Source: Chryseobacterium sp. Leaf405
Lineage (GTDB): Bacteria; Bacteroidota; Bacteroidia; Flavobacteriales; Weeksellaceae
Length of the DNA: 64,000 nt
Assembly (NCBI RefSeq): GCF_001425355.1
Contig: NZ_LMQN01000015.1
Coordinates: forward strand, 1,066,702 to 1,130,701
Direction: 5' to 3'
The number at the start of each line of letters is the position of its first letter. Position 1 is the first letter of the stretch. Made by a program: the position numbers and the translations under genes. This document shows, piece by piece, positions 9,877 through 19,124 of the stretch. The notes beneath the pieces were generated by a model that was given only the letters and a program-made list of their open reading frames with translations, was not told the origin of the DNA and made no database searches.

Positions 9877-10962
9877 TTATTTGTATGAAATTGGTAATGT
9901 ATTTTTCGGTTGTTCGCTCAGCGGTAAAAGGAATTGCTCTAATAAAGCTCTTCCATTTTTGATGTGAATATCGATTTCAGGTCGTCTTTCCTCTTCATAT
10001 TTTCTGAATGTTTCCTGAAGATCATTGCCTTCAACTAAAAGATTCGTTAATGTAAAAGAATCTTTCAATGCAGAAGTTACGCCCTGACTTGTAAAAGGGA
10101 TCAAAGGATGAGCTGCATCACCGATAAAAACGACATTCTCGTGATAAAAAGGATTTAGCTTTTCCAGTTCATAAACTCTCCAAATGTGAGCATTGTTGTA
10201 GCTTGAGCCTTCAATGATAGATGAAATCAAAGGATTCCAATCACCGAAATTATCCAGCATAAATTGTCTGATGCAATCCGGTGTATAATCTTCATTAATA
10301 AAGAATTTAGTAATGTCAAACTGACAATACCAAAGGATTTTATAGGCAGATAATTTTAAAACTCCAAAGGTCAATCCACCGTTTTCATGATGATATTTTA
10401 GAAAATTACTTTCAATCTGACTTGCCAATTCTTCATTTTCGATAATATTCACAACTTCATTTTCCAGAACAGCTTTCATTACTTCATCCTGAAAAATATT
10501 CCTTCTGATTCTGCTTCTGGAACCGTCGGAAGCAATAACTAAATCAGCTTCTAGGGTTGTGGTTTCATCAAGCATGATATTGGCTTTTCCCTCTGAAAAT
10601 CCATTAAAATTCACCGTTTTTTCATAAGAAATTTTTTCGGCAGGAACTCCTTTTGCCAGAATTTCTATCAATGCACTTCTGGAAACCACAAAAACATCAT
10701 CAAGGTCTTTCTCAGAAATAACTTCTCCGCTTTGACTGTAATGAATATATTTTTTAAGGAAACTTCCTTTTTCGTAAAGATCATCAATGTTTATAATGCT
10801 TGACAGAAACTCAATGCCTTCTTTGGGAAGAATAAATCCGTGTCCTTTCAGGTCATTTGGGGTTCTTCTTTCGTAGAGATGGTAATTGATATTATTATTT
10901 TCCAAATAATTTGCCATGCTCAATCCTGAAACTCCAGCTCCTATGATTGCAACTTTGCTCAT
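9877..10962 (-). CDS. FAD-dependent monooxygenase (UbiH/salicylate hydroxylase type)
   Basis: A 361-residue group A flavoprotein hydroxylase. The dinucleotide-binding motif IGAGVSGLSMANYLE is at residues 6-20, the DG motif is ADLVIASDGSRSRIR, and the GD motif is VVFIGDAAHPLIPFTSQGVTSAL. It is slightly short for the family but has all three signatures. It is the first gene of a two-gene operon with a PatB-like PLP enzyme, which suggests joint action on an amino-acid-derived or aromatic substrate. That pairing is the only clue to the pathway. Confidence 0.88.
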   Translation of the reverse strand: MSKVAIIGAGVSGLSMANYLENNNINYHLYERRTPNDLKGHGFILPKEGIEFLSSIINIDDLYEKGSFLKKYIHYSQSGEVISEKDLDDVFVVSRSALIEILAKGVPAEKISYEKTVNFNGFSEGKANIMLDETTTLEADLVIASDGSRSRIRRNIFQDEVMKAVLENEVVNIIENEELASQIESNFLKYHHENGGLTFGVLKLSAYKILWYCQFDITKFFINEDYTPDCIRQFMLDNFGDWNPLISSIIEGSSYNNAHIWRVYELEKLNPFYHENVVFIGDAAHPLIPFTSQGVTSALKDSFTLTNLLVEGNDLQETFRKYEEERRPEIDIHIKNGRALLEQFLLPLSEQPKNTLPISYK

Positions 10963-11156
10963 TCTATTAATTTAGTCGTTGTTAGTTTTATTAAAATGTG
11001 AAATTTTCAATCACTAAAATTTAAAAAAACGGTGAAATATCCGCATTGTTATTTTAGTCGATATGAAGTAGTCTCTTTAATTGATTGTATATTATCAATA
11101 AAGAAAATATAAGTGATAATATCTGAATTTGATATTAAATGAAAGTAAGAGAAATA

Positions 11157-11774
11157 TTATTCCGGTGCTTTGAAAATATTGTCATCAGAATGGAATCCTG
11201 CAACACCTCCACTTACTGCAAATTTCATGGCAGAAGCGGCCGTCATACCTACTACAGGTTTGATATTTTTTTCTTCCGTTACAATTACCCAACCGGAAAT
11301 TGCGTAAGAATGCGGAAGATAAACAGCAACGTAATTGTGTTTTTCTACGTCGGCCATTTCTTTTTGTGTTAAAAACCCAATTCTCCAGATTTCCGGATTT
11401 TCATTGGTTTTTACCCAAACAGGATCGTTGAATTTCTTCTTATCGCCTACAAATGAAGACATTACATCTTTTGTAGGGGTGTAAATATGTTTTACTCCGG
11501 GAGTTTTTTCCAACAGCCGATCCATAGAATCGAAGAAGAATTTTCCAAGAACGAATTTGTTTCCTAAAAATCCTAAAATTGCTGTTATTAAAATGGTAGA
11601 AATAAAAACTAATCCCGGAATTTCCTTTGCCACAGACGGAATGATGTTGTCAATAGAAGTAACAACATACCATATTACAGAAATTGTCAGCCCGATCGGA
11701 CCGATAATTACTAATCCCTGAAAGAAGTTTTTCAGGAAGAAATTTGTAATATTTTCAAACGTCAGTTTTTTCAA
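11157..11774 (-). CDS. DUF502-family membrane protein
   Basis: A 205-residue protein with two hydrophobic segments near the N-terminus (about 19-40 and 50-68: GLVIIGPIGLTISVIWYVVTSI and LVFISTILITAILGFLGN) and the family hallmarks IYTPTKDVMSSF and VAVYLPHSYAISGWVIVT. DUF502 proteins are widespread inner-membrane proteins without an agreed biochemical role. It lies 12 bases after miaE on the same strand, probably cotranscribed. Confidence 0.87.
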   Translation of the reverse strand: MKKLTFENITNFFLKNFFQGLVIIGPIGLTISVIWYVVTSIDNIIPSVAKEIPGLVFISTILITAILGFLGNKFVLGKFFFDSMDRLLEKTPGVKHIYTPTKDVMSSFVGDKKKFNDPVWVKTNENPEIWRIGFLTQKEMADVEKHNYVAVYLPHSYAISGWVIVTEEKNIKPVVGMTAASAMKFAVSGGVAGFHSDDNIFKAPE

Positions 11775-11786
11775 TGCAAATATTTT

Positions 11787-12368
11787 TTATCCGTGAATGG
11801 TTTCACTTTTTCCGTAAGACTGAATGACTTTAGCTTCGTATTCCAGCCATTCTTCCCAACGTTTGTTTACTTTTTCCTCGTCTCCAAGCTGTCTTGCAAA
11901 CCCGATGAAAGTGGTGTAATGATTCGCTTCAGAAATCATTAATTCTCTGTAAAAAGTTTTAAGTTCTTCGTCTTTGATATTTTCAGTCAAAACTTTAAAT
12001 CGTTCACAGCTTCTTGCTTCAATTATCGCTGCAAAAAGCATTTTGTCGACAATTAAAGTATCTCTATGCCCTCCTTTCTGAATGAAATTAACCAGTTCGT
12101 TCACGTAATCGTCTTTTCGTGTACGTCCAAAAGTATAACCTCGTTTCTTGATAATTTCAAGCACCTGACCAAAATGTTCCAATTCTTCCTGAGCAATCAT
12201 CAAAAGTTCACTGATAATGTCGGGACGTTCTGGAAGCATTGTAATCAATCCGATGGCATTGGTTGCTGCTTTTTGCTCACACCACGCATGATCCGTCAAA
12301 ATTTCCTGAATGTTTCCTTCTGCAATATTTGCCCATCTCGGATCGGTCGTGAGCTTCAACTTAAACAT
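11787..12368 (-). CDS. miaE: tRNA-(ms2io6A37) hydroxylase MiaE
   Basis: A 193-residue ferritin-like non-haem diiron enzyme that hydroxylates the isopentenyl group of ms2i6A37 in tRNA. Diiron ligands are visible in the helical motifs DHAWCEQKAA, EELEHFGQ, EARSCERF and SEANHYTTF. MiaB, which makes the 2-methylthio precursor, is encoded at 33877 in this window, so both late steps of the modification are present. The start MFKLKLTTDPRWA is the family N-terminus. Confidence 0.93.
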   Translation of the reverse strand: MFKLKLTTDPRWANIAEGNIQEILTDHAWCEQKAATNAIGLITMLPERPDIISELLMIAQEELEHFGQVLEIIKKRGYTFGRTRKDDYVNELVNFIQKGGHRDTLIVDKMLFAAIIEARSCERFKVLTENIKDEELKTFYRELMISEANHYTTFIGFARQLGDEEKVNKRWEEWLEYEAKVIQSYGKSETIHG

Positions 12369-12518
12369 ATTTGTAAATTTTTTGTAAAATTAAAATAATT
12401 TGTGATATGATTGGATTTTATTTATACTGTAAGCCTCCTTACATATAAATTTTTTCAAATAGTAAGATGCTGGTATTTTTTTTGTTATTGTCTTTATAAC
12501 CAAATAAATATTAAAAAA

Positions 12519-12764
12519 ATGAAAACAATTACAAATTTTAAATCAAAAGTAAATCGTTCATTAGTATTGCTGTTCACTATGTGTATGTCTTTTTTTGCTT
12601 TTGCCCAGGATACTGCTGGAGGAGTAGTTACTAAAGAAAATACGAGCACAAGTACAACTACAACTGAATGGTATGCAGATCCCATGTATCTAATTGGCGG
12701 TGGGATTTTATTGTTAATTATCATTGCACTTTTCGTGAGAGGAGGAAGAAGAGGGGAAAATTAA
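12519..12764 (+). CDS. Small secreted/membrane protein with signal peptide and C-terminal anchor
   Basis: An 81-residue protein read from the ATG at 12519 (MKTITNFKSKVNRSLVL), which gives a clean signal peptide ending FAFAQ. A Thr/Ser-rich stretch (TSTSTTTTEW) follows, then a transmembrane helix (about 54-70, YLIGGGILLLIIIALFV) and a basic tail (RGGRRGEN). An in-frame ATG exists at 12411, but the extension has no signal character. No function is recognised. Its stop codon overlaps that of the convergent acyltransferase gene. Confidence 0.75.
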   Translation: MKTITNFKSKVNRSLVLLFTMCMSFFAFAQDTAGGVVTKENTSTSTTTTEWYADPMYLIGGGILLLIIIALFVRGGRRGEN

Positions 12765-13858
12765 ACGGTTTTATTGGCAGTTTTTCTTCTTAGAAACTCA
12801 AGGATATTCCATCCGAGATGATCTATTTTTTTCAATCCTAATGAAATGAGGAAAGCTAACATAATATTAACACCGTAAATTATAATCATTAAGATCCACC
12901 AAGGCATATATTCTTTTAACGGAACTACTAAAAAATAAACCAATGATGAACTTATGCCTTGTCCAAAATAAAAGAAAATGGCATTTTTACCGACATGGGT
13001 AATGAAACTTTCTCTGGAAATTTTTAATCTGTTGTAAAATACAAATAATGTTACCAGTGAAAAGAATGTCCAGATAATATAAGGAATCTGGGGAGGGAAT
13101 TTATTTTTATTGATTTTATAAAAAATATCTGCTCCGTAATACCAAGACATTCCTATTAAAGCTGCTGCTACGGTTGCATACAACACAGGAATTATTTTTG
13201 TGGGAATTTTTTTGCCTCGCAATTTGTTGGCGGCTAAGAAAATTGTCATATAAAAAGCAACGTAGCCAACTTGTCCTGTGGGATACATTTCAGGAAAAAT
13301 ATTAAATAAAAATGTCAAAACGATACAAAGTCCGATGAACCAATTGATATGTTTCGGGAAAAATCTTAAAATTAAAACACCAAAGACTGTTAGTATAAAA
13401 TATACTTTCAAATACCAGAAACTTCCCATCACAACAGGAAAAGTATCTGCGTTTGTATATTGATGAAGATACCAATTTCCAAGATTTTGCCATTGTGGGA
13501 TATTTGAAATACTGGTGGTTGCATATTTTGACCCGAATGTTGAGTAAAAACTTTGCAGCCATTCTAACGAGAAAAAAGTTAGTCCAAAAACTTTAAAAAA
13601 GTAATCTGCAAAGAATAGAAACGTAACGAAAATCATGTACGTAATCTGTAATTTCAATAATCTGTAAAATGTTTTTTCGATATTTGAACCTGAAGTAATT
13701 CCGCTTAAAGCATAAAATAAGGCAACATCAAAAACCAAGGAAAATACCCGGATTTCTACCGGAATATAAAACTGTCCCGACCAAAAAGCGGTGTGAATAA
13801 ATATGATGGAAAGGGTTGCCAATCCTTTTGCGAAATCAATATAAAGGTCTCTTTTCAT
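12761..13858 (-). CDS. Acyltransferase family 3 membrane protein
   Basis: About 365 residues with roughly ten hydrophobic helices. The N-terminus MKRDLYIDFAKGLATLSIIFIHTAFWSG is the standard opening of acyltransferase-3 proteins, with the catalytic-type His in helix 1. I chose the ATG at 13858; the frame stays open to 13942, but that extension adds a polar, non-family segment. Members O-acylate extracytoplasmic glycans, peptidoglycan or lipids. The acceptor is unknown. It converges on and overlaps the stop of the small membrane protein gene. Confidence 0.85.
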   Translation of the reverse strand: MKRDLYIDFAKGLATLSIIFIHTAFWSGQFYIPVEIRVFSLVFDVALFYALSGITSGSNIEKTFYRLLKLQITYMIFVTFLFFADYFFKVFGLTFFSLEWLQSFYSTFGSKYATTSISNIPQWQNLGNWYLHQYTNADTFPVVMGSFWYLKVYFILTVFGVLILRFFPKHINWFIGLCIVLTFLFNIFPEMYPTGQVGYVAFYMTIFLAANKLRGKKIPTKIIPVLYATVAAALIGMSWYYGADIFYKINKNKFPPQIPYIIWTFFSLVTLFVFYNRLKISRESFITHVGKNAIFFYFGQGISSSLVYFLVVPLKEYMPWWILMIIIYGVNIMLAFLISLGLKKIDHLGWNILEFLRRKTANKTV

Positions 13859-13967: not shown

Positions 13968-14855
13968 TTATTTAAGGTCTTTAAATTCTTCCGCAGAGAT
14001 TTCTCCGTTCTGAATTTTTCTCAATTCGTCTGTATATTGGCTCATGTAAGCGTCAATTTCAGGATATTGAGAATTTTTGCCCATTTTATAAGTTCCGTTT
14101 AAAACTCCCTGATAATAATAGAAGAAGTTATAATCAAATGAAGAAGCTGTAAGATCGTACTGACCTAGTAAAAATCCTAAACGAACGGCAGATCTTCTTT
14201 GTGGCGGAGTTCCGTGATGCCCTGCACTTGTTGTCTGATAATCTCCGATGCTTTGTGCGAATTCGTAAGCAGCTGCAATCTGCGCAAACGTTGTTTGATT
14301 GTAACCGTTTGGTCTTCTCAGATAATATCCTGCAAAACCGTCTGCTTCCAGTTCATTTGGTCTTGCGGTTGATTCACTTACAGAAGGTAATCCGAATATA
14401 TACTGAAGCTGATGACCGTATTCGTGAGCCAAAATCATGGCATTAACAATATTTCCGCCCTTATTTTTGGCATCTGCATAGATGGCATATCCATAATAAA
14501 TTTTCCCTGTAGAATAAGAAATTGCGTTGTAGGTAGAGTTTGGACTTGAAGGATCATTGACAAATCTCAGCGTTGGACTGGTTCTTCCCCATAAACCTGC
14601 GATCTGTGTCATTTGAGAATTCATGAAGTTGGTATCAGCAGAATTTGGAAGTGATGTGGTAAGAACTGCCGTAGAATTCCAGTATTGATCTACGTAATAA
14701 CATACTTTTTCCAATGCATTGGGCTGTTCGATCTTGAGATTTTCCGGTTGTTGTTCTGTTTGTGCAGGACTGTCCATTGAATCGTCGTTACAAGCTGACA
14801 ATGAGAGTGCAGCAATGGCTCCCACAAGGAGTGGAAAATAGATGTTTCTTTTCAT
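13968..14855 (-). CDS. Zinc metallopeptidase-like lipoprotein
   Basis: A 295-residue lipoprotein (lipobox LSLSAC, C22). The zinc motif HEYGH is at 144-148 in MILAHEYGHQLQYIFG, followed by ELEADGFAGYYLRR (from about 168), where E170 fits the third ligand in the YpfJ-like neutral zinc metallopeptidase arrangement. The C-terminal third is helical and unassigned. Substrate unknown. It lies about 110 bases upstream of the acyltransferase in the same orientation. Confidence 0.82.
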   Translation of the reverse strand: MKRNIYFPLLVGAIAALSLSACNDDSMDSPAQTEQQPENLKIEQPNALEKVCYYVDQYWNSTAVLTTSLPNSADTNFMNSQMTQIAGLWGRTSPTLRFVNDPSSPNSTYNAISYSTGKIYYGYAIYADAKNKGGNIVNAMILAHEYGHQLQYIFGLPSVSESTARPNELEADGFAGYYLRRPNGYNQTTFAQIAAAYEFAQSIGDYQTTSAGHHGTPPQRRSAVRLGFLLGQYDLTASSFDYNFFYYYQGVLNGTYKMGKNSQYPEIDAYMSQYTDELRKIQNGEISAEEFKDLK

Positions 14856-14998
14856 ATAAATAAATTTAGGTGTTAACGAATGTATAACTTTAAACGCAAT
14901 TTATTGTCACTTTATTGTGAGATAATATTCAAAACATAGTTAATTTTTAAAATAATAAAAAGATTGTTTTGATTGTAAGGTATTTAGAAATTTATTCT

Positions 14999-15006
14999 TA
15001 TATTTG
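14999..15006 (+). promoter_or_regulatory. Probable -7 promoter element for rplU-rpmA
   Basis: TATATTTG followed by CACC matches TAnnTTTG and lies 31 bases before rplU. A TTG occurs at 14973-14975, but its spacing (23 bases) is longer than the usual 17-20. Confidence 0.6.
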
Positions 15007-15036
15007 CACCTCGAAATAACTAAAAATTTATAAACA

Positions 15037-15417
15037 ATGTTTGCAATTGTAGAAATAGCAGGGCTTCAATATAAAGTTGAGCAAGACCAGAAGTTGTTTG
15101 TGAACCGTTTGAAAGGAGACAAAGGAGGAAAAGTATCTTTCGATAAAGTACTTCTTACTGTAAACGGAGCAATCACTGTAGGCGCCCCAGCTGTAAGCGG
15201 AATCACTGTGGAAGCCGAGATCCTTGATCATGTAAAAGCTGATAAAGTAATCGTTTTCAAAAAGAAAAGAAGAAAAGGTTATCAGGTAAAGAATGGTCAC
15301 AGACAATCTTTAACTCAAATTCAGATTACTGGTATTACAGGATTTGAAGGAGCTAAAAAAGCAGAAAAGCCTGCTAAGAAAACAACTAAAAAAGCTGACG
15401 CTGAAAGCGCAGAATAA
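15037..15417 (+). CDS. rplU: 50S ribosomal protein L21
   Basis: A 126-residue L21 of the large ribosomal subunit. The core (MFAIVEIAGLQYKVEQDQKLFV... GYQVKNGHRQSLTQIQITGI) spans about 1-102 and is followed by a Lys/Ala-rich tail of about 24 residues, an extension commonly seen in flavobacterial L21. It is transcribed with rpmA, 26 bases downstream, the near-universal L21-L27 pair. Confidence 0.98.
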   Translation: MFAIVEIAGLQYKVEQDQKLFVNRLKGDKGGKVSFDKVLLTVNGAITVGAPAVSGITVEAEILDHVKADKVIVFKKKRRKGYQVKNGHRQSLTQIQITGITGFEGAKKAEKPAKKTTKKADAESAE

Positions 15418-15443
15418 TTTAAACCAAAAAACCTTAAAATAAA

Positions 15444-15701
15444 ATGGCACATAAGAAAGGAGTTGGTAGTTCCAAAAACGGTAGAGAATCTCATTCTAAA
15501 AGATTAGGTGTTAAGATTTTCGGAGGACAAGAAGCTATTGCCGGTAATATTATTATCAGACAAAGAGGTACGCAACACCACCCGGGTACTAACGTGGGAA
15601 TGGGTAAAGACCACACTTTGTTTGCTTTAGTAGACGGTAAAGTAGTTTTCAGAAAGAAAGCAAACAACAGGTCTTTTGTATCTGTAGAGCCGAACGCTTA
15701 A
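15444..15701 (+). CDS. rpmA: 50S ribosomal protein L27
   Basis: An 85-residue L27, full length for the family: [24 protein letters not shown], then [29 protein letters not shown]. Its N-terminal tail reaches the peptidyl transferase centre. There is no Firmicutes-type N-terminal cleavage extension. It is the second gene of the rplU-rpmA operon, closed by the hairpin at 15723. Confidence 0.98.
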
Positions 15702-15722
15702 TTGTAGCGTTTCATAAAAATT

Positions 15723-15755
15723 AAAATCCTCAGCATTGATGTTGAGGATTTTTTG
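15723..15755 (+). terminator. Terminator after rplU-rpmA
   Basis: A stem of AAAATCCTCA paired with TGAGGATTTT, extended by about three more pairs with one wobble, around a short loop. It is followed by a T run at 15749-15754. Confidence 0.88.
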
Positions 15756-15820
15756 TTGTGCCCAATTTTATTTAAAAAGTTAAATTTTTATAATTTATTC
15801 TATATGTGGTGAAATGTTTT

Positions 15821-15828
15821 TATATTTG
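15821..15828 (+). promoter_or_regulatory. Probable -7 element of the first Gly-Gly peptide gene
   Basis: TATATTTG lies about 75 bases upstream of the peptide start at 15904, implying a 5' leader of roughly 65-70 bases. No strong -33 match is seen. Confidence 0.5.
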
Positions 15829-15903
15829 GTAACAATCAAATAACAAATTAGTTGCGGAAGCCGAAAAGCAAATAGAGTAGGCGACAAATTAAAACAAAAT
15901 ATT

Positions 15904-16068
15904 ATGAAAAATCTAAAAAAACTAACGAAGAAAAATTTGAAAAATATTAATGGTGGAGCAGAAAGATGTCCTCCTTTGGCAAATTGGTGTGCTGAATGGT
16001 GTACTTGGTCTGCCTGGCAAAAAGCGCATTGTTTAAATGCTGTTCTTGACACACCTTGTGATTGCTAA
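15904..16068 (+). CDS. Cys-rich bacteriocin-like peptide with Gly-Gly leader (peptide 1)
   Basis: A 54-residue peptide. The leader is basic and amphipathic (MKNLKKLTKKNLKNINGG), ending in a double glycine at 17-18, the classic site cut by peptidase-containing ABC exporters. The predicted core (19-54) has five cysteines (C22, C29, C33, C43, C52) plus C54, so six in 36 residues, and three tryptophans (W28, W32 and W35, with W38 close by). The leader type is common in Chryseobacterium proteins called bacteriocin-like. No exporter or modification enzyme lies nearby. Function is unknown. Confidence 0.8.
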   Translation: MKNLKKLTKKNLKNINGGAERCPPLANWCAEWCTWSAWQKAHCLNAVLDTPCDC

Positions 16069-16091
16069 ATATCACATTACTCATTATATCT

Positions 16092-16118
16092 AAGCCTCAG
16101 TTTTATGGGGCTTTTTTA
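16092..16118 (+). terminator. Probable terminator after peptide 1
   Basis: AAGCCTC pairs with GGGGCTT (one wobble) around a TTTTAT-type loop and is followed by six T residues. The stem is short but the T run is good. It suggests peptide 1 is a separate transcript from peptide 2. Confidence 0.65.
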
Positions 16119-16179
16119 TGAAATCCTGATAAAATATTATTCCTTACATTTATCAAACGTCAAATTAAAATCAATTACT

Positions 16180-16365
16180 ATGAAAAATTTAAAGAAAATC
16201 AACAGAAACGAACTTAAAAATGTAATGGGAGGAGCACTTCCTGTAAAAGACTGTCTGCCTTGCGATATTTATTGTAAAATTCCTGAAGGGCAAAGACCTT
16301 CTTGCGGTATTGTGTATATTGTTGCTCACTGTAATAGCTGTAAAGATTATCCGGCAGAATCTTAA
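16180..16365 (+). CDS. Cys-rich bacteriocin-like peptide with Gly-Gly leader (peptide 2)
   Basis: A 61-residue peptide starting at the ATG at 16180; an in-frame ATG at 16105 lies in the preceding terminator and is not a plausible start. The leader MKNLKKINRNELKNVMGG closely matches that of peptide 1, and the Gly-Gly is at 17-18. The core (19-61) contains cysteines at 24, 27, 31, 41, 50 and 53 but is otherwise unlike peptide 1. The pair therefore shares an export signal and diverges in cargo. Function unknown. Confidence 0.8.
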   Translation: MKNLKKINRNELKNVMGGALPVKDCLPCDIYCKIPEGQRPSCGIVYIVAHCNSCKDYPAES

Positions 16366-16372
16366 AATGAAA

Positions 16373-16402
16373 AAATCTCCTTCAAATTTGAAGGAGATTT
16401 AT
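16373..16402. terminator. Bidirectional terminator
   Basis: A 28-base perfect palindrome (AAATCTCCTTCAAA / TTTGAAGGAGATTT, positions 16373-16400) with flanking A and T tracts. It separates peptide 2 from the convergent DUF5686 gene. Confidence 0.88.
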
Positions 16403-16405
16403 ATT

Positions 16406-18931
16406 TTAAAAACCAACTTGGAATCCGGCTTTAATGCCGAAAGTGGAAATATCCGGTCTGTCAAGATAATTTCCTCTCCAGTTGAAATCTACTCGGAAAA
16501 TTCTAAGATTCCCGAAACCTATATTTTCAATTCCTACTCCGTATTCATAATAAATATGTTCGCTGGGCGCAGAATATTTAATTCCTTCCACATTAATTGC
16601 TTTAGATGCATCGCTCAACGTTCCGTAAGCTCCTCTTATGAATGCGATTTCCCTCAATTTTAATTTCTTAATCAAAGGGATGTAGGAAAGGATTTTACCG
16701 TTAAAATGATGCTCTAAATGAAGCGTTGTGTAAGTGTCTGCTACAAACTCATAATAATTAAGCTGTGCAAAAGTATTTTGAGCCAAACTGTAAGACTGGT
16801 TTCCGGGGATTACATTCTGTAATGCCAATGGAACGGTATCGAAATTTTTTCCTGCTTCAAAACTAACCAATGTTTTACCCCAACTTCCGATCAGCATCGG
16901 TTTGTAGAACATAAACTGTAATTTATTATAACTGAAATCAGATCCGAATAAGCCTTCAACGCCTTTTGTATATTTTAAAACAATGGTTGGTGCCAATGTT
17001 CCGTGTTCGTATCTGTCGATTCCGGTTTGTGAGAATTTAGCGCCTGGTCTTGCGATTAAACTAAACGTAAAGTGCGAATCGTTCGTTGTTTGTCTTAGAG
17101 CTCCGTTTTTGTAATACATTAAATTGAACCCTGCCGGATTAGCAGATTTAATACTTTGCATAGTACCGTCTAACCTTACCTGAAAGTTTTTCCAGGGTTC
17201 GATAGACGTGAAAACGTTGGTTTGATTTACCGAACTTAATGAAGCATTCTCTCCTCTTGCAAAAAGCGTGGAAGAAGCGAAGGTTCTCGCCATAATTCCG
17301 TCGTCGTTGGTTAATTGAACTCCCAACTGAAGAATGTCTCTTCGTGTTCCTGCTCCAACAGTGAATCTATTGACTCTGTTAAACATAAATCGACCTTCAG
17401 CACCATATTTTACCTGTTGATCTTTAAATCCGTAAGCCGTATAAAACTGAAGTCTCCAAGGGTCATTTCTTGTGAAATAAGTTCTCGCTCCCAGTCGAAT
17501 TCTGTCTCCTTCCACTTCATTTTTTCCATAAATTGAGAATATTGGACCAATATCAATAGCTTTAAAAACGTTATAATAGCCTGAGCCCAACGTTTCATAT
17601 ATTTTTACAATTCTGTTGAATTTAGGAGTCTGCTGTAATTTATCAAGCATCTCATAGACTCCCTGTTCGGTTTTTGATAATGAATCAGGTCTTGCCTTTA
17701 CCCAGAAAGCATCATCTTTATCTGTGAATGCATCGTCATATTCTTCCTCTTTTCGTACAAAAACTTTATCATCAAGAGGCTTATTAAATTCATACTCAGA
17801 ATAATCGACTGATCTTTTTGCTACAATACTTTTTGCTGATTTCTTTTTAGAAAAAGGGGTCATTTCTATCTCTGTGACGAATTTTCTTGGTAAGAAAGTA
17901 TTTTCATCGGGATTGTCGTACTCCAATTCAGTAGAAATTCCATTAATGAAATTAACATTGATTTTTTGTGTCGATTTCAATGTTGCTCCCAAAACGGCAT
18001 AGCTGTCTGTATCAATAAAAAGATAGCCCTGAAAAGCTAAAACTTCGGTTCTTTTTGGCTGATAGCGGATTTTGTAGGCTTTTTCTCCTCTTACCGAAAT
18101 CGTATCAATAAGGTTATAGTCGTAGGTGCTGAATCCTGTTTCTCCAACTGGACTTGGAAAACCGATATCAAAATAATTTAACGTATTGTCATAAATATTA
18201 ATATCACGATAAAGATTTTTCGCCGTTAAAGTAACAATCTGATTGTCCTGAAATCCTGATGTTTTCTGCGCAACAAGCAGTTTTTTTGTTTTTTTGCCAG
18301 GTTTATTTTCTCCGTAATTTTCGTAAATAGCTTCGTTCAAAAAGATCGGAAGTCCAATCTTTCCGCTTGCGGTAGAATCTGTGTAATCAAAAATGAAATC
18401 CATCTTGTTAAAGATTTTTCTCTTCATGAAAACACTATCCAGATTATTGGCATCAAACTGAATTTTTTCGTATTCTTTGAAAGTATATGTATCAAATTTG
18501 TCTAAACCGTTGTTCCTTTTTCTTTCCCAGACTTTCTGCATGATAGCATATGCCGGATTCTCTTTCTTATTTTTGTATTTTGGTTTTTCGTTGTGAATGA
18601 CAACTTCTTCAATGCTGCTGACTTTTTCTTGAGCTAATTTTACAAAAATATTTTCTGCATTTTCAGAAGTTACATTCACGAATTCTAGCGCATAGCTTTT
18701 TCTCTGGAATTTTAATTTATAAATAATACTGTCAGACTGAATGCTAAAATTCCCTGAAGCCGTTGTTTGTGATGGCTTGTCATTTTCATTAATGAAAATA
18801 TCAACACCGGAGATTTCTTTATTGGTTTTCGAGTCTACAATTCTGCCTTTTGCTGAGTTCTGCGCACAGATAAAGTCGGAAAAAAAGATAAGAAGGAAAA
18901 GAGGATAATATTTCGAGTTATTAATTAACAT
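16406..18931 (-). CDS. DUF5686 outer-membrane protein with carboxypeptidase-like regulatory domain
   Basis: About 841 residues from the ATG at 18931 (MLINNSKYYPLFLLIFF), which starts a signal peptide ending ICAQ. A carboxypeptidase regulatory-like beta-sandwich (KGRIVDSKTNKEISGVDIFI... GNFSI) lies just after it, as in many Bacteroidota surface proteins. The DUF5686 region follows, with YAIMQKVWERK, and the C-terminal half is rich in alternating beta strands ending in aromatic GIKAGFQVGF, consistent with an outer-membrane barrel. The frame stays open upstream to 19024, but that extension lacks a better signal. Role unknown. Confidence 0.88.
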   Translation of the reverse strand: MLINNSKYYPLFLLIFFSDFICAQNSAKGRIVDSKTNKEISGVDIFINENDKPSQTTASGNFSIQSDSIIYKLKFQRKSYALEFVNVTSENAENIFVKLAQEKVSSIEEVVIHNEKPKYKNKKENPAYAIMQKVWERKRNNGLDKFDTYTFKEYEKIQFDANNLDSVFMKRKIFNKMDFIFDYTDSTASGKIGLPIFLNEAIYENYGENKPGKKTKKLLVAQKTSGFQDNQIVTLTAKNLYRDINIYDNTLNYFDIGFPSPVGETGFSTYDYNLIDTISVRGEKAYKIRYQPKRTEVLAFQGYLFIDTDSYAVLGATLKSTQKINVNFINGISTELEYDNPDENTFLPRKFVTEIEMTPFSKKKSAKSIVAKRSVDYSEYEFNKPLDDKVFVRKEEEYDDAFTDKDDAFWVKARPDSLSKTEQGVYEMLDKLQQTPKFNRIVKIYETLGSGYYNVFKAIDIGPIFSIYGKNEVEGDRIRLGARTYFTRNDPWRLQFYTAYGFKDQQVKYGAEGRFMFNRVNRFTVGAGTRRDILQLGVQLTNDDGIMARTFASSTLFARGENASLSSVNQTNVFTSIEPWKNFQVRLDGTMQSIKSANPAGFNLMYYKNGALRQTTNDSHFTFSLIARPGAKFSQTGIDRYEHGTLAPTIVLKYTKGVEGLFGSDFSYNKLQFMFYKPMLIGSWGKTLVSFEAGKNFDTVPLALQNVIPGNQSYSLAQNTFAQLNYYEFVADTYTTLHLEHHFNGKILSYIPLIKKLKLREIAFIRGAYGTLSDASKAINVEGIKYSAPSEHIYYEYGVGIENIGFGNLRIFRVDFNWRGNYLDRPDISTFGIKAGFQVGF

Positions 18932-19124
18932 TTGTTGTTTCTTCAAGCTATTGCATAAACAAAAAGTATGCAGATTTATTGTAATAAGTAAATAATATTT
19001 AAATTTTAATGCATTTAAATACAAAACTGCAAATGTAACGAAATAACATCATCATTTTAACGTGTTATAGTTATTGTTTTGTTAAAGTCTAGACTTAAAT
19101 ATGAATAAAACGATATAAAATAAA

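Follow-up and report, generated by a model that had tools for sequence, protein, structure and literature searches.

Two small neighbouring genes of Chryseobacterium sp. Leaf405, here called P1 and P2, probably encode precursors of exported, disulfide-bonded, bacteriocin-like peptides which resemble bacteroidetocins in their working and belong to a set of genes dispersed around one export locus. We put the probability of this reading at about 0.6. The precursors each bear a double-glycine (GG) leader of 18 residues. A C39-peptidase ABC exporter, whose single gene is on contig C21, would cut after the Gly-Gly pair while moving the core out of the cytoplasm, with an HlyD-type adaptor alongside. 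A VKOR-thioredoxin fusion and two TlpA-like proteins may then oxidise the Cys pairs and rearrange them on the outer side of the cytoplasmic membrane. One machine of this kind would handle a library of about 20 dispersed peptides here and of as many as 48 in congeners. A DUF805b pseudoknot RNA located approximately 20 nt before the P1 start codon would control P1, probably at translation. The likeliest use of the peptides would be antagonism of related bacteria, as for bacteroidetocins, which likewise have no known immunity protein; an antibacterial action of P1 and P2 is suggested by this analogy, and antagonism is our best guess.

Two tandem peptide genes with double-glycine leaders

Both genes lie in a window of 64,000 nucleotides, the whole stretch of DNA that was analysed. 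P1 (15904..16068, plus strand) encodes 54 amino acids, an 18-residue GG leader followed by a 36-residue core with the pattern C-x6-C-x3-C-x9-C-x8-C-x-C. P2 (16180..16365, plus strand) encodes 61 amino acids, with a GG leader of 18 residues and a 43-residue core of the pattern C-x2-C-x3-C-x9-C-x8-C-x2-C. The first-pass annotation had reported two tandem Cys-rich GG-leader peptides at 15904-16365, and these coordinates hold, as do the six Cys in each core. P2 starts at 16180; a mechanical open reading frame from 16105 is an upstream extension which runs through the P1 terminator. In agreement with the separate terminators that had been claimed, terminator-like hairpins are located 3' of P1 (16092..16113, plus strand) and 3' of P2 (16373..16400, scored on both strands), and four terminator-like sites were found between 15400 and 16600 compared with 0.8 expected from shuffles.

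The leaders, MKNLKKLTKKNLKNINGG in P1 and MKNLKKINRNELKNVMGG in P2, are identical at 11 of 18 positions. The earlier description of one leader type on different cores therefore stands, while 'near-identical' was slightly too strong. Both leaders pass the curated cut-off (23.5 bits) of the NCBIfam model NF047798, leader_Chryseo 'bacteriocin-like protein', with 29.6 bits for P1 and 27.9 bits for P2. The leader type is thus already catalogued and the system cannot be called undescribed, as had been suggested. P1 and P2 belong to NF047798 by their leaders; the model spans the 18-residue leader only, and its one-line entry is silent on exporter, Cys chemistry, RNA element and activity. TIGR01847 (cut-off 15.7 bits) is passed by P1 with 16.7 bits, and P2 stays below with 13.2 bits. 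Both peptides score under the gathering cut-off (27.1 bits) of Pfam Bacteriocin_IIc (PF10439), P1 with 15.0 and P2 with 12.0 bits. The class II double-glycine bacteriocins of Gram-positive bacteria (PF10439, TIGR01847) follow the same logic of GG leader and C39 exporter. P1 and P2 differ from them by the PF10439 scores, by the lack of a linked immunity gene and by their Gram-negative host.

The cores had been called unrelated, which we consider doubtful. They have the Cys spacing 3-9-8 in common, the commonest framework being 6-3-9-8-1 among P1-type peptides (23/56) and 2-3-9-8-2 among P2-type peptides (24/28). This spacing and the same slot (see below) would favour common descent. It is countered by a profile comparison of the two cores, which gave a probability of 1.3% with three Cys in register and did not establish homology, and we therefore leave common ancestry undecided. 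For comparison, the best pair among the ten largest core clusters reached 78.9% and consisted of two clusters other than those of P1 and P2. The predicted structure of the P1 core has two short helices (mean pLDDT 90.7, pTM 0.59), and the AlphaFold model of the P2 core (pLDDT 59.1 from 6 sequences) was too poor for use. The P1 profile had no matches among PDB sequences, and a Foldseek search with the P1 core model gave none either, the query of 36 residues being too short to be informative.

A conserved slot under purifying selection

P1 and P2 occupy a slot between the gene at 15444..15701 (plus strand), which we take to be rpmA (L27), and a gene for a large conserved protein at 16406..19024 (minus strand), presumably DUF5686-like. 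Both border genes are present at 30/30 of the best P1 loci and 30/30 of the best P2 loci, with the own genome counted in both sets. The slot holds one to several tandem peptide genes, and the number of P1-type copies varies between congeners. Genes of both the P1 and the P2 type are also found in the culturable species C. gregarium DSM 19109 (L217). The space between rpmA and the right-hand gene is too small for another gene, such as one for immunity.

In close pairs, dN/dS of the core is 0.13 for P1 (7 pairs) and 0.11 for P2 (83 pairs), and dN/dS of the leader is 0.08 for P1 and 0.33 for P2, so that the P2 leader changes faster than its core. Over pooled pairs the P2 core gives 0.05. Because substitutions are mostly synonymous, we regard P1 and P2 as working genes. 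Purifying selection, the conserved slot and the leader evidence rule out that they are chance open reading frames. Relatives of P1 in the named genome collection come from 27 loci, all in Chryseobacterium records. A phage origin of P1 and P2 is without support: when the P1 alignment was compared with viral contigs, 107 stretches fitted a pattern and none was a relative, and PHROGs gave no family for P1 or P2.

Some P1-type matches of congeners contain a stop codon (e.g. in genomes G141, G077 and G169), as might be expected if P1 and P2 were seldom-expressed passengers of the export system, relics of a once larger arsenal. Against this speak the purifying selection on both genes, their own terminator-like hairpins, the narrowly spaced conserved RNA element described below and the conserved slot, and we consider such a status very improbable.

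Signalling stays the main rival because P2 is so well conserved. The P2 gene has 27 matches with 73-100% identity, its own included, in 173 genomes of the genus, and this strong conservation of the core across species would be as fitting for a signal or a housekeeping function as for a weapon. On this view the peptides would be exported in the same way and act as signals, or form part of the producer's envelope or matrix, instead of being antibacterials. The missing room for an immunity gene fits too, since dozens of toxins without immunity genes would endanger the producer cell. Yet the diversity of cores (51 clusters in 215 peptides) and the varying number of tandem P1-type genes in the slot are unusual for signals, and no receptor-like gene was noticed in passing beside P1 and P2. 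We hold a role of this kind to be unlikely, and continue with the reading of P1 and P2 as bacteriocin-like peptides.

A dispersed library and one export locus

The genome (4.49 Mb, 21 contigs) has 18 leaders over the NF047798 cut-off, spread over eight contigs. From 24 leader matches we took 22 own peptides, including four under the cut-off (L019-L022) and omitting a 421-aa open reading frame (L023) and one of 10 aa (L024). In 14 control genomes the leader model gave matches in 8 at E 10, none of them over the cut-off, and in 0/14 at E 0.001.

As had been noted from the sequence of the window, there is no exporter near P1 and P2: the single C39 peptidase match of the whole genome is located on C21, another contig than theirs. 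The C39-ABC gene is part of a same-strand array with four leader peptides, HlyD, VKOR-Thioredoxin_4 and two TlpA-like genes. In order of transcription (minus strand, coordinates of locus L026) the array starts with a leader peptide (18225-18455), followed by two TlpA-like proteins (17076-18164 and 15944-17044), the VKOR-Thioredoxin_4 fusion (14295-15800), two leader peptides between the fusion and the C39-ABC gene, the C39-ABC exporter itself (11501-13693), a further leader peptide (11235-11429) and the HlyD-type adaptor (9894-11192). A fifth leader peptide is encoded 9 kb from the array on the opposite strand.

The first-pass annotation had proposed a peptide library with one export and maturation system elsewhere and a search of the complete genome for further leaders and a C39-type exporter. 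That search has found both, and the 18 leaders, the one C39-ABC gene and the VKOR-thioredoxin and TlpA-like genes beside it bear the proposal out. The genomic mark of C39-exported double-glycine peptides, a GG leader together with a gene for a C39-peptidase ABC exporter, is present here.

Two features of the locus are of separate interest. The tandem TlpA-like proteins (L026 15944-17044 and 17076-18164) are alike over a large part of the middle and C-terminal regions, pointing to a recent duplication or to gene conversion. Directly 3' of the exporter locus lies a gene for a tyrosine recombinase (L026 8255-9604), and the locus may therefore sit on or beside an integrated element.

We asked how leaders, C39 and VKOR are distributed. 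Of 118 genomes in the genus, with the own one counted, 108 have leaders, 115 have C39 and 110 have VKOR. Genomes with VKOR have leaders in 107 of 110 cases, compared with 1/8 of those without (Fisher p 1.8e-8). In the family outside the genus (147 of 246 genomes), 12 genomes have both, 4 the leader only, 6 VKOR only and 125 neither (p 2.1e-10). Among the C39 matches listed, VKOR lies at most 8 kb from C39 in 102/110 genomes and at most 2.5 kb in 96; the remaining 8/110 have no C39 within 8 kb among the matches listed, some assemblies being split. In twenty-six of the 118, VKOR is accompanied by a single C39 match and by 6-42 leaders, which means that one exporter serves many peptides or that most peptides bypass a model-detectable C39. 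A majority of the genus has more than one C39 match, so a single exporter can be asserted firmly for this genome alone. The maximum number of leaders per genome is 48 (G085).

Three VKOR genomes lack a leader at E 0.001 (G028, G089 and G052). Cys-rich GG peptides with weaker leaders were read in two of them, two in G028 and one in G089. G052 has no leader_Chryseo peptide even at E 10 and either uses a different kind of leader or retains a remnant of the system; its C39 and VKOR genes are on one contig, 4.5 kb apart (C12:93934-98410). Conversely, one leader peptide occurs without any VKOR in G087.

Even cysteine counts and diverse cores

The Cys of the cores were counted in 215 unique peptides from 196 loci, gathered by leader, C39, RNA, P1 and P2 queries and picked with a profile built on 17 own leaders. 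This is not a random sample, and core clusters were counted in addition to lessen sampling bias; the three odd-Cys peptides were kept. The number of core Cys is even in 212/215 peptides, in 49/51 core clusters (p 6e-13 against one half) and in 21/22 own peptides. Six Cys occur in 166 peptides and four in 45, and counts of one, two, five and seven occur in one peptide each. This parity fits the oxidoreductases of the export locus and supports the pairing of Cys as disulfides, a probable use that the first-pass annotation had already named.

The Cys could instead be substrates of a RiPP enzyme that forms thioethers, belongs to the DUF692 type or works in another way. Chryseobacterium is known to produce such a product, the Cys-modified RiPP ChrA, made via a DUF692 enzyme (PMC10214503), and some other genes preceded by DUF805b encode lanthipeptide or TIGR04149 leaders. 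On the other hand, even parity in nearly all core clusters is at odds with this, and a scan of six proteins from the exporter locus gave thiol oxidoreductases and no RiPP modification enzyme. We therefore regard enzymatic modification as improbable and keep to disulfides as the predicted state of the Cys.

One cluster of 16 peptides has a cystine-knot-type framework, C-C-CC-C-C, seen with the core Cys spacing 5-6-0-4-6 at two loci of the same congener, both outside the window (L042 and L162). One core of the knot-type cluster matches Pfam Toxin_12 with 22.6 bits (cut-off 21) and, at a best E of 0.11, has a weak likeness to PDB spider knottins. The knot-type framework likely reflects convergence on a common disulfide frame and implies no activity.

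Comparison with bacteroidetocins

Bacteroidetocins are proposed class IIf bacteriocins that kill Bacteroidetes through BamA, according to two reports (PMC6671954, PMC8546649). The first describes a GG leader, a C39 ABC transporter and a thiol oxidoreductase whose deletion attenuates activity; migration of the peptides differs when they are reduced, and no immunity protein was found (PMC6671954). As far as these descriptions go, P1 and P2 share with bacteroidetocins the GG leader, the C39-ABC exporter, a thiol oxidoreductase, several Cys, the lack of a visible immunity gene and the phylum Bacteroidetes. Size is similar as well, with 42 amino acids given for mature bacteroidetocins and predicted cores of 36 (P1) and 43 (P2). 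Bacteroidetocins are described as having at least two, disulfide-bonded Cys, and P1 and P2 have six each within a library in which 49/51 clusters are even.

The differences are as clear. Bacteroidetocin leaders are given as 15-16 residues (PMC6671954), compared with 18 in P1 and P2. Bacteroidetocin genes are described as lying beside a C39 ABC gene, a transmembrane (TM) protein gene and usually a thiol oxidoreductase gene, whereas P1 and P2 are on another contig than the exporter; other members of the library do sit in a locus comparable to the bacteroidetocin region. In place of the five-TM protein and thiol oxidoreductase reported there, we find a VKOR-thioredoxin fusion, HlyD and TlpA-like genes. 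Unlike the published cases, this genome has many peptide genes, most of them far from the exporter, as a comparison by description shows. Membership of the bacteroidetocins was rejected because leader length and locus, in dispersal and content, differ.

A search for literature on double-glycine leader peptides of Chryseobacterium also returned a report on graspetides (PMC8939145). Searches of the open-licence literature gave nothing on DUF805b, on DUF805 as a riboswitch or RNA motif, on a bacteriocin-like protein of Chryseobacterium or on VKOR linked with a bacteriocin, and they found no publication that tied DUF805b to GG peptides or described the common exporter or the Cys parity.

A pseudoknot RNA upstream of P1

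The first-pass annotation had missed a DUF805b RNA (RF02914) at 15851..15883 (plus strand), a candidate cis-regulatory pseudoknot RNA in the P1 5' UTR (40.4 bits, gathering score 35.6). The promoter-like sequence TATATTTG at 15821..15828 (plus strand) fits TAnnTTTG, the Bacteroidetes -7 promoter motif, and would place DUF805b near the 5' end of the mRNA. TAnnTT[T/A]G occurs at most 45 nt upstream of the element in 49/76 element-bearing peptides, a raw count without chance control.

The DUF805b motif reportedly stems from an original motif-description study. The printed consensus line of the Rfam model consists of a four-pair hairpin only, to which the elements analysed here add a covarying loop-tail pairing (a pseudoknot) and an association with GG-leader peptides. 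In 89/95 unique elements, compared with 38.6 expected, the loop base preceding CCG forms a Watson-Crick pair with the base that follows GAGTAGG, a count reached by 0 of 20000 shuffles, which ignore relatedness; in a diverse subset of 40 elements the figures are 35 and 15.2. Of the four stem pairs, two covary in the same way, a third is nearly invariant and the outermost gives no significant signal (50/95, 43.4 expected).

A search of the own genome gave 11 matches, of which seven are over the gathering score, two just below, and two at E 0.4-0.6 were omitted. Four of the seven precede leader peptides, namely P1, L003 and two of the exporter locus, at a distance of 52-55 nt from the start codon. 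The element thus stands before 4/22 own leader peptides. At E 1 the model matched all 14 control genomes, never over the cut-off, and at E 1e-5 it matched 40/40 genomes of the genus (own included) and 0/14 controls. When the best match of each of 29 genomes was inspected, the downstream gene was of the leader_Chryseo type at 16 of the 29 loci (assigned by eye or with our own leader profile), another GG-leader precursor at 4 and another gene at 9. The four other precursors comprise L172, over the cut-off of the lanthipeptide leader NF038153, L186 and L174, over and under that of TIGR04149, respectively, and L176, which is L172-like by sequence alone.

The motif AGAGTAGG is found within 110 nt upstream of 56/160 peptides gathered ahead of the RNA query. 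The fuller pattern precedes 76/215 peptides, a count which includes loci fetched for the element and scores peptides less than 160 nt from a locus end as without; 4/22 and 56/160 are the less biased frequencies. In these 76 the distance from the end of the element to the start codon is 16-24 nt (median 21). Such narrow spacing suggests that DUF805b would act on P1 at translation.

Taken further, and offered tentatively as a possible wider picture, the library may form a venom-like repertoire. Each genome would encode dozens of disulfide mini-proteins at unlinked sites, some of them of the cystine-knot type, which share one export and oxidation locus, and a subset would be under DUF805b as a 5'-terminal switch that senses a ligand or state and governs antagonism genes such as those for leader_Chryseo peptides and for lanthipeptide and TIGR04149 precursors. 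If the main reading is right, one exporter mutant would strip the cell of its whole secreted arsenal and make the role of dozens of uncharacterised peptides testable in one step. DUF805b, an RNA family for which no function was found, would gain a likely job in the control of GG-leader peptide genes, and this job would be a starting point in the search for its ligand or trigger. The library would also be a natural supply of disulfide-stabilised mini-proteins that are very diverse and mature through a common system.

The remaining DUF805b matches of the own genome lie upstream of a phage-collar-domain protein, a small DUF6520-like protein (weak, under cut-off) and family-less proteins, one of them not directly. 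The element was seen upstream of phage-tail-collar-domain proteins, at L149 and L175 by Pfam and at L183 by sequence likeness, and of a caspase-domain protein (L163). Its position before collar-domain and caspase-domain genes indicates that the regulon is wider than the peptide library.
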